NCBI GenBank assembly: GCA_943788095.1 | Contig: CALSOZ010000012.1 | Location: 1 to 32,917, forward strand | From: an uncultured Flavobacteriaceae bacterium | GTDB taxonomy: Bacteria > Bacteroidota > Bacteroidia > Flavobacteriales > Flavobacteriaceae | Direction of reading: 5' to 3' | DNA length: 32,917 bases | Shown: piece by piece, positions 408 to 5,151 of the stretch | Layout of the letters: every line of letters starts with the position of its first letter | How positions within the stretch are numbered: the stretch's first letter is position 1 | The notes under the pieces: model-generated | Seen by the model: only the letters and a program-made list of their open reading frames with translations | Database searches by the model: none | What the model was told of the DNA's origin: nothing | Position numbers and translations under genes: made by a program

Positions 408-587
408 TCAGATCTCAATACTTGAAATCATTTTTTGTATTTGTTTTAGTTTTTGTTCTAATTCTTTATATTTTTCGTCGGAAGTATAACTTTTACTGAA
501 AGCTACGTTCAATTGTGTTTCCCATTCAAAAGCTGAAACTAACACCATGCTTTCATTCCAAATCTTTAATTTCTTAAAATTATGCAG
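408..587 (-). pseudogene. Decayed four-helix-bundle protein gene (23S rRNA IVS-protein/bAvd-like family)
   Basis: The minus strand reads HNFKKLKIWNESM, then directly FEWETQLNVAF and TSDEKYKELEQKLKQIQKM, then a TGA stop. The first piece matches the start of the four-helix-bundle (S23/IVP) family and the last pieces match its C-terminal half. About 50 central residues, including the usual GLTSQ..RRSAVSIPSNI..G block, are missing. The expected start codon is CTG (585-587), where the family has ATG followed by H-x-F. It lies between the thiolase stop and the acyl-CoA dehydrogenase start, the same relative place as the intact copy one gap upstream. Degenerate heptad repeats follow it. The internal deletion and lost start make it a probable relic. 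Confidence 0.65.
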
Positions 588-619: not shown

Positions 620-1816
620 CTATTTAAGAAATTCAATAATTCCACACGCCCCTTGTCCAGTCCCCACACACATGGTTACGGCTCCATATTTGCCTTGCAT
701 ATTCTGTTTACGCATTTCATCAAACAACTGTACCGATAATTTTGCGCCCGTACATCCTAGTGGGTGTCCCAATGAAATCGCGCCACCATTTGGATTGATA
801 ATCTCTGGGTTAAGGTCTAATTCACGTATTACTGCTAAGGATTGAGAAGCAAAGGCTTCATTCAATTCTATCAATGATAAATCCTCTTGTTTTAGTCCTG
901 CTTGTTTTAATGCTTTTGGAATGGCTTTTACGGGCCCAATACCCATAATTCGAGGCTCAACACCTGCGGCGGCATAGTTCACCAATCGAGCAATGGGTTC
1001 CAAGTTTAATTCTTTGACCATATCTTCACTCATGACCATCACAAAAGCAGCTCCATCACTCATTTGTGATGAGTTTCCTGCAGTGACACTTCCGCCAGCA
1101 GCAAAAACGGCTCTCAATTTTGCTAAAGCTTCTTTGCTAGTTCCTGCTCTAGGGCCTTCATCTTTGGTAACCGTATATGATTTAGTTGCTTTTTTTCCAG
1201 ATGCATCAATATAATTTTGTTCAACTTCAATAGGAACTATCTGATCTTGAAAACGGTTTTCTGCTTGCGCTTTTAATGCTTTCATATGGGAATTATATGC
1301 AAACTCATCTTGATCTTCTCTAGAAATTTTAAACTGATTTGCAACGGCTTCTGCGGTATTTCCCATGCCCCAATAATAATCTTCGTGTCCCGCTTTTATG
1401 AGGTCATAATTCAGTTCTGGTTTATAGCCAGTCATCGGAACACTACTCATGCTTTCTGCACCACCTGCGATGATACAATCGGCCATTCCAGCTTGAATTT
1501 TTGCTGTTGCCATTGCTATTGTTTCTATTCCAGAGGAACAAAATCGATTGACTGTAACTCCAGGAACATCCACAATGTCTAATCCCATTAACGAGATTAA
1601 TCGTGCCATATTTAATCCTTGAGATCCTTCGGGCATCGCATTACCAACAATTACATCATCAATCCGTTTTGGATCTAAATCGGGCAGTTCTTTCATCATG
1701 TGTTTGATGGTTTCTGCGGCTAATTCATCGGTTCTTTTAAAACGAAAGACGCCTTTTGGAGCTTTACCTACGGCGGTTCTGTATGCTTTTACAATGTATG
1801 CTTGTTTGCTATTCAT
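620..1816 (-). CDS. fadA: Acetyl-CoA C-acyltransferase (3-ketoacyl-CoA thiolase)
   Basis: This cytoplasmic enzyme splits 3-ketoacyl-CoA with CoA to give acetyl-CoA, the last step of the beta-oxidation cycle. At 398 residues it has normal thiolase length. The nucleophilic cysteine is C93 in NRFCSSG. The C-terminal catalytic block is GHPLGCTGAK with H351, and the second cysteine is C383 in CVGTGQGACG, where many thiolases have C-x-G-G-M/G-x-G. NEAFAS is also present. The start ATG directly follows a heptad repeat (1817-1848), so its leader is formed by the inserted cassette; I see no Shine-Dalgarno, which is normal in this phylum. The order fadN-fadA-fadE equals that of the Bacillus subtilis fadNAE operon. 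A biosynthetic acetyl-CoA acetyltransferase is less likely given these neighbours. Confidence 0.93.
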   Translation of the reverse strand: MNSKQAYIVKAYRTAVGKAPKGVFRFKRTDELAAETIKHMMKELPDLDPKRIDDVIVGNAMPEGSQGLNMARLISLMGLDIVDVPGVTVNRFCSSGIETIAMATAKIQAGMADCIIAGGAESMSSVPMTGYKPELNYDLIKAGHEDYYWGMGNTAEAVANQFKISREDQDEFAYNSHMKALKAQAENRFQDQIVPIEVEQNYIDASGKKATKSYTVTKDEGPRAGTSKEALAKLRAVFAAGGSVTAGNSSQMSDGAAFVMVMSEDMVKELNLEPIARLVNYAAAGVEPRIMGIGPVKAIPKALKQAGLKQEDLSLIELNEAFASQSLAVIRELDLNPEIINPNGGAISLGHPLGCTGAKLSVQLFDEMRKQNMQGKYGAVTMCVGTGQGACGIIEFLK

Positions 1817-1848
1817 AGTATTAAGATTATTGTATTAAGTATTAAGAC
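1817..1848. repeat. AGTATTA heptad repeat between four-helix-bundle gene and fadA
   Basis: The sequence holds AGTATTAAG (1817-1825) and GTATTAAGTATTAAG (1832-1846). On the minus strand this repeat supplies the last residues (L-N-T) and the TAA stop of the four-helix-bundle gene at 1835-1837. It ends against the ATG of fadA at 1816. Confidence 0.8.
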
Positions 1849-2188
1849 TTCTTTGAAGTGAGAAATTCATTTTTGTGATTTCTAGAACTTCATTTATAAT
1901 AGGTCTTACATTTTCTTCTTTTATTAAGTTTAATCGAGTCGATAAATATAATTGTGTTAATAATTCATAACAAGAACCATTTGCAATTCCTAAAAATTGC
2001 TTAAACTCTCCTTTTGTGTTTCTTCCAGCCCCTTCAGAAATATTTGATGGGATAGAAACGGCACTTCTTCGAAGTTGAGATGTCAAACCATATCTTTCTT
2101 CTTTTGGGAAATTTTCAGATGCTTTGTAACATTTTTCAGTGATGTCCATTGCTTTTTGCCATATTTTTAATTCTTCAAACTTATGCAT
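1835..2188 (-). CDS. Four-helix-bundle protein (23S rRNA intervening-sequence protein/bAvd-like)
   Basis: This 117-residue protein opens with MHKFEELKIWQKAMD and carries the family block YGLTSQLRRSAVSIPSNISEG (about residues 35-55), followed by GEFKQFLGIANGSCYELLTQL. It therefore belongs to the small all-helical S23/IVP family (TIGR02436-like), which is found in insertions of 23S rRNA genes, in diversity-generating retroelements as Avd, and very often as stand-alone genes in Flavobacteria. Relatives form pentamers that bind nucleic acid; the role of stand-alone copies is unknown. Here it sits inside the fad operon between fadN and fadA, with heptad repeats on both sides. Its stop codon is made by the repeat. 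No reverse transcriptase or rRNA gene is nearby, so neither known context applies. Confidence 0.9.
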   Translation of the reverse strand: MHKFEELKIWQKAMDITEKCYKASENFPKEERYGLTSQLRRSAVSIPSNISEGAGRNTKGEFKQFLGIANGSCYELLTQLYLSTRLNLIKEENVRPIINEVLEITKMNFSLQRSLNT

Positions 2189-2209
2189 GGGGTTAAGTGG
2201 TTTATTGTT

Positions 2210-2243
2210 AGTAATGAGTATTGAGTATTAAGTATTAAGTAGA
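2210..2243. repeat. Phased AGTATTA heptads upstream of four-helix-bundle gene
   Basis: Four heptamers lie exactly in phase: AGTAATG (2210), AGTATTG (2217), AGTATTA (2224), AGTATTA (2231), then AGTAGAT leading into the first 84-bp unit. On the minus strand they lie upstream of the four-helix-bundle start. Confidence 0.8.
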
Positions 2244-2689
2244 TTGTATTAATTTTAAAATATTCATTTCGATTCTATATAATTTATTGTCTTTGTACTT
2301 AATTCTTTGCAGTCAGTATTAAGAAACTAGTATTAAGTATTAAGATATTAGTATTAAGTTGTTTGTATTAATTTTAAAATATTCATTTCGATTCTATTAA
2401 TTTATTGTCTTTGTACATAATTCTTTGCAGTCAGTATTAAGAAACAAGTATTAAGTATTAAGTAGTTTGTATTAAATTTAAAATATTCATTTCGATTCTA
2501 TATAATTTATTGTCTTTGTACTTAATTCTTTGCAGTCAGTATTAAGAAACTAGTATTAAGTATTGAGTATTAATTAGTTTGTATTAATTTTAAAATATTC
2601 ATTTCGATTCTATATAATTTATTGTCTTTGTACATAATTCTTTGCAGTCAGTATTAAGAAGCTAGTAATAAATAGTTTGTGTTAATTTT
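2244..2689. repeat. Array of 84-bp direct repeats separated by heptad-multiple spacers
   Basis: Four near-identical units run from TTGTATTAATTTTAAAATA to CAGTCAGTATTAAGAAAC: 2244-2327 (84 bp), 2363-2445 (83 bp, one base lost), 2467-2550 (84 bp) and 2579-2662 (84 bp). A fifth, truncated unit starts at 2677 and diverges at about 2690. Spacers are 2328-2362 (35 bp), 2446-2466 (21 bp), 2551-2578 (28 bp) and 2663-2676 (14 bp), all multiples of seven and built from AGTATTA-like units. I find no open frame through the unit on either strand. Conservation between units is very high, so duplication looks recent. Confidence 0.9.
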
Positions 2690-2718
2690 CAACGCCTCAA
2701 TTATATTATTTTCTTAAC

Positions 2719-2741
2719 TAAATACTTAATACTTAATACTA
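2719..2741. repeat. Heptad repeat abutting the fadN stop codon
   Basis: The sequence reads TACTTAATACTTAATAC on the plus strand, i.e. AGTATTA units on the minus strand. The corrected fadN stop codon TAG (2739-2741) is the first part of the repeat (TAGTATTAAG on the coding strand). The cassette thus begins exactly at the end of fadN. Confidence 0.75.
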
Positions 2742-5151
2742 ATTACGAAGCGGTTTCCCTGTTTTTAACATATGCTGTATCCGTTCTAAGGTTTTACGTT
2801 CGGTACATAAACTTAAGAAAGGCTTCACGTTCTATATCCAATAAATATTGTTCTGAAACGAGCGTTGGTTCAGATAAATCACCTCCAGCCATTACATAGG
2901 CTAGTTTATTAGCAATTTTCATATCATGCGCCGAAATGTAGTTGCTATCTTGCATCGAATCGGTACCGACTAAAAACATCCCTAAAGCTTGTTTTCCGAG
3001 TACTTTGACGTCGGTTCTTTTTATTGGTTGTGTATATCCAGCATCTGCCATTAATTTTGCGTGTTGTTTTGCAACGGCAATTTGTCGGTCTTTATTTACC
3101 ACTACCACATCTTTTCCTTTTTGTAAAAGGTTTAAATCAAATGCTTCATAAGCAGATGTCGATACTTTTGCCATTCCAATGGTTAAGAAATGTTCTTGTA
3201 ATACATTTAATTGAACATCGCCTTTTTGGAACTTATCTTGTGCTCTTAAGGCCATTTCTTTTGAACCTCCTCCGCCAGGAATCACACCAACTCCAAACTC
3301 AACGAGTCCCATGTAAGTTTCAGCAGCTGCCACAACTTTATCAGCGTGTAAGGATAATTCACAACCACCGCCTAAGGCCATGCCATGTGGCGCCGAAATA
3401 GTTGGGATTGATGAATATCGCATGCGCATCATTGAATCTTGGAAATATTTGATCGCCATATTAAGCTCTTCATATTCTTGCTCTGCAGCCATCATGAAAA
3501 TCATTCCAATGTTGGCACCCACCGAAAAATTCGGACCTTGATTACCAACCACTAAACCTGCAAAATCTTTTTCAGCCAAATCAATAGCTTTATTTAGGCC
3601 TGCTAACACATCGCCACCAATGGTGTTCATTTTTGATTGAAATTCTAAGTTGAGGATTCCGTCTCCTAAATCTTCAATAACCACTCCCGAGTTTTTAAAT
3701 ACTTCGTTTGTTTTTCGAATGTTATCTAAAATGATGAAACTATCCTGACCTGGGATTTTTGTTTGTGTTTTACTTGGAATGTCATAGGCAAAGGACGCAC
3801 CATTTTTAACACTATAAAATGATGAACTGCCTGAAGCTAACATCTCATGGACCCAAGAGGCAGGTTCTAAACCTTCCGCTTTCATAAGTTCAATTCCTTT
3901 TTCAACACCAATCGCATCCCAAATTTGGAAAGGGCCGTGCTCCCAACCAAATCCTGCTTTCATGGCATCGTCAATTTTATAAAGTTCATCGGTTATTTCA
4001 GGAATTCGATTTGAAACGTATGCAAATAGGGCGGTAAAACTTTTACGGTAAAAATCACCTGCTTTGTCTTTTCCTGAAACTAAGACTTTAAATCGGTCAA
4101 CGACTTTATCAATTGTTTTTGTGAGTTCTAATGTGGCAAATTTTGCCCGCTTAGCAGAACGGTATTCCAAGGTATTTAAGTCTAAACTTAAAATTTCTTT
4201 TTTACCTTCCGCAGAAACCGTTTTTTTATAAAATCCTTGTCCTGTTTTGCTTCCAAGCCATTTGTTTTCCATCATTGAATTGATGAAATCGGGTAATTCA
4301 AACAACTCTAAACGCTCATCTTTAAGGCAATTTTCTCGAATGCCGTTGGCAACGTGAACCAAAGTATCTAAACCCACAACATCGACCGTTCTAAAGGTGG
4401 CCGATTTTGGGCGACCAATGACTGGCCCCGATAATTTATCCACTTCTTCAATCGTTAGATCTAAATCCTTGACCGCATGAAACAAACTTTGAATACTAAA
4501 TATGCCAACTCTGTTTCCAATAAAAGCTGGCGTGTCTTTAGCAATGACAGAGGTTTTTCCTAGAAATTGTTCGCCATAGCCTGCTAAAAATTCTAAGAAC
4601 TTCAGGAGTTGTTTGGGGTCCTGGAATAATTTCAAATAATTTTAAGTAGCGTGCTGGGTTAAAAAAGTGGGTTCCACAAAAATGTTTCTGAAAATCTTCA
4701 CTGAGACCTTCACTCATGAATTTTATTGGAATTCCAGAAGTATTGGACGTGATTAAAGTCCCAGGTGTGCGGTATTTTTCTAAGTTTTCAAACACCATTT
4801 TTTTGATGTCCAATCGCTCTACAACCACTTCCATAATCCAATCGACATCGGCTACTTTTGCAATGTCGTCTTCTAAGATTACCCGTGGTAATTCGCTGTG
4901 CAAATTTTTGATGGTAAATAGGGGAGGGCTTCGATTTCAAAGACTGCTTCAAGCGCTTCATTAACCAAACGATTTCGAACAATTTTGTCCTCTAAAGTGA
5001 GTCCTTTCGCTTTTTCTTTCGCGTTGAGTTCTCTGGGGACAATGTCTAAAAGTAATACATCGACTCCAATATTGGCAAAATGACAAGCAATTCCGCTGCC
5101 CATGATCCCAGAACCAATAATCGCAATTTTTTTTATTCTTCGTGTTTTCAT
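2739..5151 (-). pseudogene. fadN: 3-hydroxyacyl-CoA dehydrogenase/enoyl-CoA hydratase (FadN-like), four frameshifts
   Basis: This bifunctional enzyme hydrates enoyl-CoA and oxidises 3-hydroxyacyl-CoA with NAD. The N-terminal Rossmann motif is IIGSGIMGSGIACHFANIGV, the dehydrogenase motif is GTHFFNPARYLKLFEI, and the crotonase half with ALGGGCELSLHADKVVAA and GVGVIPGGGGSKEMALR is at the C-terminus, the FadN order and the reverse of E. coli FadB. The frame breaks four times, each fitting one extra base: near 4943 (GCA-G-TCT), 4872-4876 and 4593-4595 (both CTT-A-GA on the coding strand) and 2813-2816 (CTT-A-AG). Removing four bases from 2413 leaves exactly 803 codons, ending ERKTLERIQHMLKTGKPLRN and TAG at 2739-2741. 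Without the last correction the frame would stop at 2794. It starts 19 bp after marR. I expect it to be intact in the organism. Confidence 0.9.

Follow-up and report, generated by a model that had tools for sequence, protein, structure and literature searches.

A four-helix-bundle gene between inverted heptad arrays in a fad operon gap of a Flavobacteriaceae bacterium, with counterparts at other operon gaps

Anatomy of the fadN-fadA cassette

The 32,917-nucleotide stretch of DNA analyzed here (the window; contig CALSOZ010000012.1 of assembly GCA_943788095.1, from an uncultured Flavobacteriaceae bacterium) carries a fad operon on its reverse strand. The gap between the fadN and fadA genes of this operon (1817-2738) holds a gene for a four-helix-bundle (4HB) protein of the PF05635/TIGR02436 family, set between arrays of 7-nt repeats (heptads). 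The gene (1835-2188, reverse strand, 117 aa) belongs to the S23, or 23S rRNA-intervening-sequence-protein, family and is co-directional with fadN and fadA. The whole unit, which we call a cassette, fills the gap exactly: its first heptad overlaps the fadN stop codon TAG (2741-2739), and the fadA start codon (1816-1814) abuts its last heptad. Read from fadN, the order is outer heptads, four composite units, inner heptads, the 4HB gene, and heptads again. A search for AGTATTAAGTATTA with at most two mismatches gave 10 matches in the window, all within 1831-2740, compared with 0.52 expected, and none of 100 shuffles reached 10, so chance is excluded as the source of these heptads. An earlier sequence-only reading of this DNA had reported AGTATTA heptads and a 4HB gene filling this gap; both are real and lie where it placed them.

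The two outer arrays form an inverted pair: the heptads of one (2713-2741) point the opposite way from the heptads of the other (1817-1849), a feature that goes beyond the sequence-only reading. The 5' arm (2713-2741, reverse strand) is (AGTATTA)n on the sense strand and starts inside the fadN stop codon. The 3' arm (1817-1849, reverse strand) is (xxxxACT)n on the fad sense strand, has about five units by eye, one of them degenerate, overlaps the final codons of the 4HB gene and ends directly before the fadA start. The outer heptads are complementary terminal arms around an S23-family open reading frame (ORF), an arrangement shared with 23S rRNA intervening sequences. Inner heptads (2207-2241, reverse strand), oriented as in the 3' arm, lie just upstream of the 4HB start codon. 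The four tandem composite units (2217-2671, reverse strand; starts at 2658, 2546, 2441 and 2323) each combine outer-type with inner-type heptads, which enclose an AT-rich loop, and make up a tandem ORF-less hairpin; the sequence-only reading had given them a length of 84 bp, and the actual period is 105-118 bp. They resemble a heptad hairpin carried once by each of three relatives (G002, G006 and G009), with alignment scores of 48.5, 56.0 and 51.0 compared with shuffled maxima of 33.5, 34.5 and 35.5. The exact 15-mer AGTATTAAGTATTAA occurs four times in the draft genome, each time within this cassette.

No ORF of at least 60 aa other than the 4HB gene lies inside 1817-2738, hence the cassette has no transposase of its own. 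The absence of an rRNA gene and of a reverse transcriptase, also part of the sequence-only reading, is borne out: Rfam at gathering scores finds no RNA family in the window, and the neighbors are fad genes, so the cassette does not lie inside a 23S rRNA gene. There is no RVT_1 (PF00078) match in the draft genome (75% complete), while the same search matches 3 of 14 control genomes.

The 4HB protein matches PF05635 at 138.6 bits (cut-off 33.8) and TIGR02436 at 130.4 bits (cut-off 24), and its AlphaFold2 monomer model has a predicted local distance difference test (pLDDT) score of 96.2. The best PDB matches found by Foldseek are 2gsc (TM-score 0.94), 2rld (∼0.80), and the Avd entry 4dwl together with the Avd chains of 8ub7, 8ube and 8ubb (∼0.8). 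The 2gsc and 2rld entries each contain five chains, and the title of Lin et al. describes the 2gsc homologue as five four-helix bundles. The window protein thus has the same fold as Avd of diversity-generating retroelements (DGRs), but it scores below the Avd cut-offs (30.1 against 80 for NF033474, 23.4 against 40 for bAvd) and the draft genome lacks the RVT_1 match. The ratio of nonsynonymous to synonymous substitution rates (dN/dS) is 0.05-0.11 at fadN-fadA (four genomes of the genus) and 0.04-0.13 at an atp site (three genomes), which indicates that the protein is under purifying selection.

Inverted arms and their spelling in relatives

A family search at an E-value of 0.001 was positive in 39 of 60 genomes, the source genome included. 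We analyzed 111 cassettes (three from the source genome), which correspond to 113 of the 145 match rows; the 32 rows left out were mostly weak, incomplete or at contig ends. Both neighbors are co-directional with the 4HB gene in 105 of the 111 cassettes, with a neighbor missing in four and opposed in two. Sequence identity at lag 7 is 0.48 and 0.49 in the flanking gaps, with harmonics at 14, 21 and 28; shuffles give 0.32, and 173 control gaps taken from these loci give 0.33. When lags of 5 to 11 are compared, period 7 is best in 82/111 cassettes and period 8 in 20/111. Heptad tracts are found in 80/158 4HB gaps but in only 23/156 control gaps; this excess beside other family members is what the sequence-only reading had predicted, and on which it had let its proposal stand or fall. 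Away from 4HB genes, tracts occur in 25/251 co-directional, 1/44 divergent and 2/44 convergent gaps.

The two arms of a cassette match each other in inverted orientation. For the 92 of 111 cassettes with gaps of at least 20 and 15 nt, alignment of the upstream gap with the reverse complement of its own downstream gap gives a mean score of 14.9, compared with 7.7 against the downstream gaps of other cassettes (0/2000 permutations); the same alignment in direct orientation gives 9.3 and 7.4, respectively. The sense strand is also skewed in composition, with G exceeding C in the 5' gap of 88/107 cassettes and C exceeding G in the 3' gap of 76/92, although the window's own clade within the genus is among the exceptions.

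The spelling of the repeats varies between cassettes, and among close relatives it goes with the protein. Over the 93 of 111 cassettes used for protein distances (no stop codon, 90-150 aa), close proteins at different sites (distance below 0.4, 20 pairs) have a mean repeat cosine of 0.29, compared with a background of ∼0.115. Cassettes with octads cluster by protein (9 of 16 nearest neighbors, shuffle mean 3.1, 11/1000 shuffles as high). Because coupling appeared only among close relatives, we ran a test within one clade, whose arms carry the word CAGT. The 80 named loci of this clade are the best 80 of 381, and the discovery-genome loci L198 and L217 were dropped, leaving 78 out-of-sample loci; the thresholds were two or more CAGT within 100 bp upstream and, within 80 bp downstream, one or more CAGT in inverted form. 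CAGT reaches threshold upstream in 55/78 and downstream in 66/78 of these loci, compared with 2/106 and 11/106 of other cassettes, while neither the reversed word TGAC (0/78) nor the wrong-strand word ACTG (0/78) reaches the upstream threshold in any of them. The loci fall into 16 downstream-gene clusters (75 loci; three have too little sequence), and CAGT is found downstream in at least one locus of 15/16 clusters; upstream, 11 clusters reach the threshold.

The only cluster without downstream CAGT consists entirely of the VQDL subclade. All eight loci of this subclade have AGTGT downstream and none has CAGT, also at a site shared with CAGT cassettes; upstream, the threshold is reached by AGTGT in six of the eight and by CAGT in one. 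Among the 70 remaining loci, in which we tallied L267 (its VQDL-type gene is interrupted by a stop at codon 4), AGTGT reaches the upstream threshold in two. Thus, in this one well-sampled clade, spelling tracks the protein clade, not the site. The CAGT cores are spaced 6 or 7 nt apart, never 8, and the upstream spacers between them are near random across loci (0.32); the spacers of the two arms of one cassette are weakly complementary (0.41 compared with 0.34, 2/1000 permutations). The core is therefore kept more strictly than the spacers, as expected of a recognized motif, with some shared descent of the array.

The number of units per arm is most often five in the two clades counted. In the CAGT clade (spacing 6 or 7, one mismatch allowed), five is the commonest count both upstream (26/78) and downstream (30/78); five control words peak at one unit, and TCAG, which overlaps CAGT, peaks at five and four. 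In the window's clade, AG at exact 7-nt steps runs most often to five, both upstream (13/31) and, if the search takes in the final 33 nt of the ORF, downstream (15/31), with shuffles peaking at one. Other dinucleotides in this clade peak at one or two.

Occupied, empty and decayed sites

In the 1.74-Mb draft genome, PF05635 matches three places: fadN-fadA, 423-539, and the atpA-atpG gap on contig C1. The second of these marks a decayed 4HB gene (408-587, reverse strand) in the gap between fadA and an acyl-CoA dehydrogenase gene, which the sequence-only reading had also not described. It has an internal deletion and no ATG at its start, and it scores 31.1 bits against PF05635 (below the cut-off of 33.8) and 29.5 against TIGR02436 (above the cut-off of 24); remnant heptads are visible by eye on both sides (∼583-621 and 347-420). 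The atpA-atpG copy is bounded by heptads of another spelling (AGAGTTT type), which are inverted at its two ends.

To compare occupancy among relatives, we took loci from 30 genomes at each site, out of 52 that have a thiolase match and 55 that have atpG, picking ORF-less forms by eye. At fadN-fadA, the 30 genomes comprise nine with a 4HB gene (in G008 and G010 the contig ends before fadN), eight with an ORF-less heptad hairpin of 70-119 bp, 12 with a gap of 3-14 bp, six of them from the window's genus, and one with another palindromic insert. At atpA-atpG, a 4HB gene is present in nine of 30 loci (one in a shortened gap), six have a gap of 12-17 bp, and atpA is missing from one; five of the remaining 14 were read as ORF-less heptad forms. 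Empty gaps thus exist within the window's genus at both sites, in keeping with the expectation of the sequence-only reading that cassette-free relatives would be found. In sister species, the same fadN-fadA gap is occupied by cassettes with different proteins and different heptads, and repeat copy number varies between near relatives. Nine fad operons have an ORF-less form in one gap and a 4HB gene or its remnant in the other; the spelling of the ORF-less form resembles that of the cassette in 7/9 (cosine 0.37-0.63) and fails to do so in G023 (0.08) and G003 (0.28). The nine comparisons are not independent, because spelling is common to closely related genomes and in some cases the score is higher with the cassette of another genome.

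One clade spans several sites and some gaps are empty, so that gain or loss, in whichever direction, affects whole cassettes. This is the part of the proposed mobility that stands. The other part, movement at present, finds no counterpart in the data: there is no transposase, phage records gave no match, a pattern scan for two clades found none in viral contigs, and among 267 cassettes the best DNA match between different sites is 81.7% over 246 nt. A transposon spreading by recent copy-paste was accordingly rejected, with no near-identical ORFs at different sites above 82% in that set. A target-site duplication would be masked by the divergence of the gaps and the repetitiveness of the arms. 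Distances between 4HB proteins correlate with those between FadA proteins (r = 0.59 overall, 0.34 within the family). The cassettes look like slow, site-loyal residents rather than active transposons.

Some further inserts were seen at these loci. In G037, ORF-less hairpins with the same GTTTGAG-type heptads lie in two nearby operon gaps (L118, 6871-6948 and 7873-7949). A different kind of insert, made of GC-rich palindromes of the CCTCTCC / GGAGAGG type, occupies the two fad gaps (L156) and the atpA-atpG gap (L182) of G036, as well as the atpA-atpG gap of G032 (L188). The G002 draft, with a contamination estimate of 8%, contains two fadA - 4HB - acyl-CoA dehydrogenase loci (L038 and L040), which therefore represent a duplication or a mixed bin.

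The family is widespread, with members in 212 of 296 genomes of a phylum-wide sample (source genome included) that we take to be Bacteroidota from its named loci, and the window protein matches 33 plasmid records, with Cyanobacteria accounting for 19 of 20 among the matches listed. The best period at 18 plasmid loci, mostly cyanobacterial, is 7 in nine, 8 in seven and 9 in two, so the association of the gene with its repeats, proposed from the window alone, extends beyond Flavobacteriaceae (period 7 or 8 in 16/18). Calothrix and Nostoc are among those with inverted sides. On the Azospirillum lipoferum plasmid AZO_p2, a 4HB ORF lies inside a 23S rRNA gene (identified by Rfam) between inverted heptad arms that are complementary at 31/36 positions, a single example that links the cassettes of operons with the well-known intervening sequences of 23S rRNA. 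Cassettes also occur in CRISPR operons of cyanobacterial plasmids, as cas6-4HB-cas4 (L341 and L353) and cas10-4HB-cmr3 (L355). Plasmids 1 and 2 of Calothrix brevissima (L338 and L339) share a 3.6-kb block at 97.5% identity that carries a phage-type integrase gene, an S23 gene and others.

A passenger in operon transcripts and its rivals

The 23S rRNA intervening sequences of Coxiella and Leptospira contain an S23 ORF, and their arms form a stem cut by RNase III (PMC4990558). In both, a transcribed unit contains complementary terminal arms that enclose a short ORF of this protein family. The cassettes differ in that the host transcript is a protein operon, with dozens of gaps used, and in that the arms are heptad arrays whose spelling follows the protein; the RNase III cleavage reported there is, for operon cassettes, our assumption. 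That one package recurs at dozens of operon gaps, its spelling in step with the protein, suggests a protein able to read the repeats of its own cassette. The protein-linked spelling across sites, together with five as the commonest number of units per arm in two clades, lends indirect support to the proposal of the sequence-only reading that the repeats may be a binding site of the protein. We therefore favor, as the probable though by no means certain explanation, that the cassette is an intercistronic counterpart of the 23S intervening sequence, with a ring protein that recognizes its own arms; binding, action at the RNA level and autonomous movement are what we infer.

The proposed mechanism can be stated as follows. 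The cassette, which lies between the stop codon of an operon gene and the start codon of its downstream neighbor, would be a passenger there; its 4HB gene is bracketed by two inverted arms of 6-8-nt units. The 4HB protein would form a five-membered ring, as its 2gsc homologue suggests, and each protomer would recognize one repeat unit; with one protomer per unit, each cassette would make a protein that reads its own arms. In the operon mRNA, the complementary arms would be folded, bridged by the ring, or both, which would set the passenger apart from the host messages and perhaps expose the stem to RNase III, as described for the 23S intervening sequences. Movement between sites would be rare, and most copies would be old residents that decay to ORF-less stems and then to nothing. 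At the RNA level, the predicted duplex between matched arms is -24.8 kcal/mol, compared with -12.5 kcal/mol for mismatched arms (88 cassettes), and within one clade the values are -36.9 and -31.6 kcal/mol. Five of seven ORF-less stems, picked by eye, fold better than shuffles (z from -4.0 to -6.8, four of them from -5.2 to -6.8). The RNA reading leads by virtue of homology with the 23S element and the sense orientation of the cassettes, which is not direct proof.

A number of observations weigh against this picture. Over all 93 cassettes, protein distance and repeat similarity are uncorrelated (Spearman 0.014), so that coupling is confined to close proteins, and CAGT is found in none of 10 cyanobacterial relatives at ∼50% identity. 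Within the CAGT clade, AGTGT occurs downstream in 17 of the 70 loci outside the VQDL subclade. Different loci also have their downstream spacers partly in common (0.46), which means that shared ancestry of the array contributes to the spelling signal. Unit counts span 1 to 13, and when exact trinucleotide chains are counted over all cassettes, one per site, the numbers drop after five, yet the mode is three. The window's own upstream gap makes a poor match to its 3' arm (score 7), the hairpin copies and inner heptads being in the way; taken as a whole, this cassette has a predicted fold no more stable than that of shuffled sequence (z = -0.4). The other two ORF-less stems fold weakly (z = -1.3 and -1.5). 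Mismatches between arms show no significant RNA-strand bias (73 G-U-compatible changes compared with 62), nor is the sense duplex significantly more often the more stable one (46/77 and 46/88). On at least two plasmids, of Pseudanabaena (L341) and Oscillatoria (L350), the two sides are direct, not inverted, and the 23S rRNA example is one locus, that of Azospirillum.

The rival explanations are not mutually exclusive, and their odds overlap. The one that survives best, although we consider it rather unlikely, is that the 4HB protein is a local regulator kept for the benefit of the host, an autogenous controller of translation or mRNA stability in its own operon, similar to TRAP. Purifying selection at both the fadN-fadA and atp sites is what such a role would predict, and by eye the downstream arms stop just before the host start codon. 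The gap before the thiolase gene is occupied in 36/60 loci, also in a family of another class, a tally whose initial 30 loci had been selected for their resemblance to the window protein. However, a regulator of this kind is hard to square with its patchiness within one genus, where six of the 12 short fadN-fadA gaps occur, with the diversity of sites (48 neighbor clusters among 93 cassettes), with decay (stop codons in 24 of the 145 match rows, and further rows incomplete), or with the use of different cassettes and different heptads in one and the same gap.

Less probable still, in our estimate, is an element that acts at the DNA level, in which the arms would be double-stranded binding sites at the ends of a transposon-like or replication-linked element, inverted as transposon ends are. 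The core is indeed kept in inverted form on both arms while their spacers are only weakly complementary, and the lack of RNA-strand bias fits as well. But the 117-aa helical bundle contains no transposase or nuclease, no recent jumps are seen, and nearly all copies are sense-oriented in operons, with one inside 23S rRNA. Heptad tracts away from 4HB genes likewise favor co-directional over other gaps (25/251 compared with 3/88), a modest difference.

We give even less credit to the possibility that the stem alone matters, as an RNA hairpin for processing or stability of the operon mRNA, with the 4HB gene as incidental cargo. ORF-less stems are common and several fold well, and heptad-free hairpins are visible by eye in the atpA-atpG gaps of G026, G029, G033 and G034, which belong to several genera, so that a stem there may be useful in itself. 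A stem, however, needs no fixed spelling, yet the spelling tracks the protein. Finally, neutral slippage, in which heptads are tandem-duplication noise that grows in AT-rich gaps and is unlinked to the protein, would account for copy number differences between near relatives and for heptads in control gaps, but it is already contradicted by the protein-linked spelling in 78 out-of-sample loci, the inverted matching of arms, the retention of the core while upstream spacers drift and the excess of heptads in 4HB gaps, and we regard it as very improbable.

Several known systems bear comparison with the cassettes. TRAP (trp RNA-binding attenuation protein) is a ring protein whose target is a series of short cores set 2-3 nt apart, with each protomer binding one core. 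The CAGT cores, spaced 6 or 7 nt apart and most often five in number, would form a similar array if the predicted binding holds; unlike TRAP, whose fold is not known to be related, the cassettes have their array twice and inverted. REP/BIME palindromes with RAYT genes combine one coding copy with many ORF-less intercistronic palindromes. The cassettes do likewise, but they lack a transposase and their spelling varies from cassette to cassette. STRR repeats of Cyanobacteria are intergenic heptamer direct repeats. The TAACTGA repeats of Beggiatoaceae, Cyanobacteria and Bacteroidetes (PMC4679880) are intergenic 7-bp direct repeats located mostly just upstream of start codons; relatives with shorter gaps lack obvious repeats, and translational control was proposed, with S1, Csp and Csr proteins as candidates. 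By our own reading, ACTG, which is the core of the downstream arms in the CAGT clade, is also part of TAACTGA. Unlike the cassettes, those repeats are given neither inverted pairing across a gene nor protein-linked spelling in the parts covered, and the main text has no match for 'four helix' or 'S23'.

PF05635 genes have been recorded in other settings: 18 were counted in cas loci (PMC3936711), others were noted in DGR neighborhoods (PMC10053308), and a table of phage elements for F. columnare includes a four helix bundle gene flanked by those for guanylate kinase and nadD (PMC5524665). Among the matches listed for titles and abstracts of the open-licence literature, none joins S23 or four-helix-bundle genes to heptad repeats, and in the portions of the literature seen we found no function for S23/4HB proteins beyond 23S insertions, cas and DGR loci.

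The link between 4HB genes and their own repeat arrays offers a concrete and cheap functional test, protein against own heptads, and heptamer repeats and 23S insertions may belong to one type of element. A bolder form of our reading, which we hold tentatively and regard as doubtful, is that a very large family of ring proteins, each specific for its own five-unit address, rides as passengers in operon transcripts and 23S rRNA. Cassettes and ORF-less stems would then form private self-recognition networks, and the spelling would be a protein-nucleic-acid code with one protomer per unit and 2-4-nt spacers. If this code holds, hundreds of natural protein-repeat pairs would be available for reading the rules of recognition.

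Two host genes flank the window cassette. The downstream gene, fadA (620-1816, reverse strand), is a thiolase with Thiolase_N/C profile matches. The upstream gene, a fadN-like 3-hydroxyacyl-CoA dehydrogenase / enoyl-CoA hydratase (2739-5151, reverse strand), is broken by frameshifts in this assembly and split over the ORFs 2794-4635, 4538-4903 and 4879-5151, the result of assembly indels or of a pseudogene; its true C-terminus (...GKPLRN) falls outside the frame of the long ORF.

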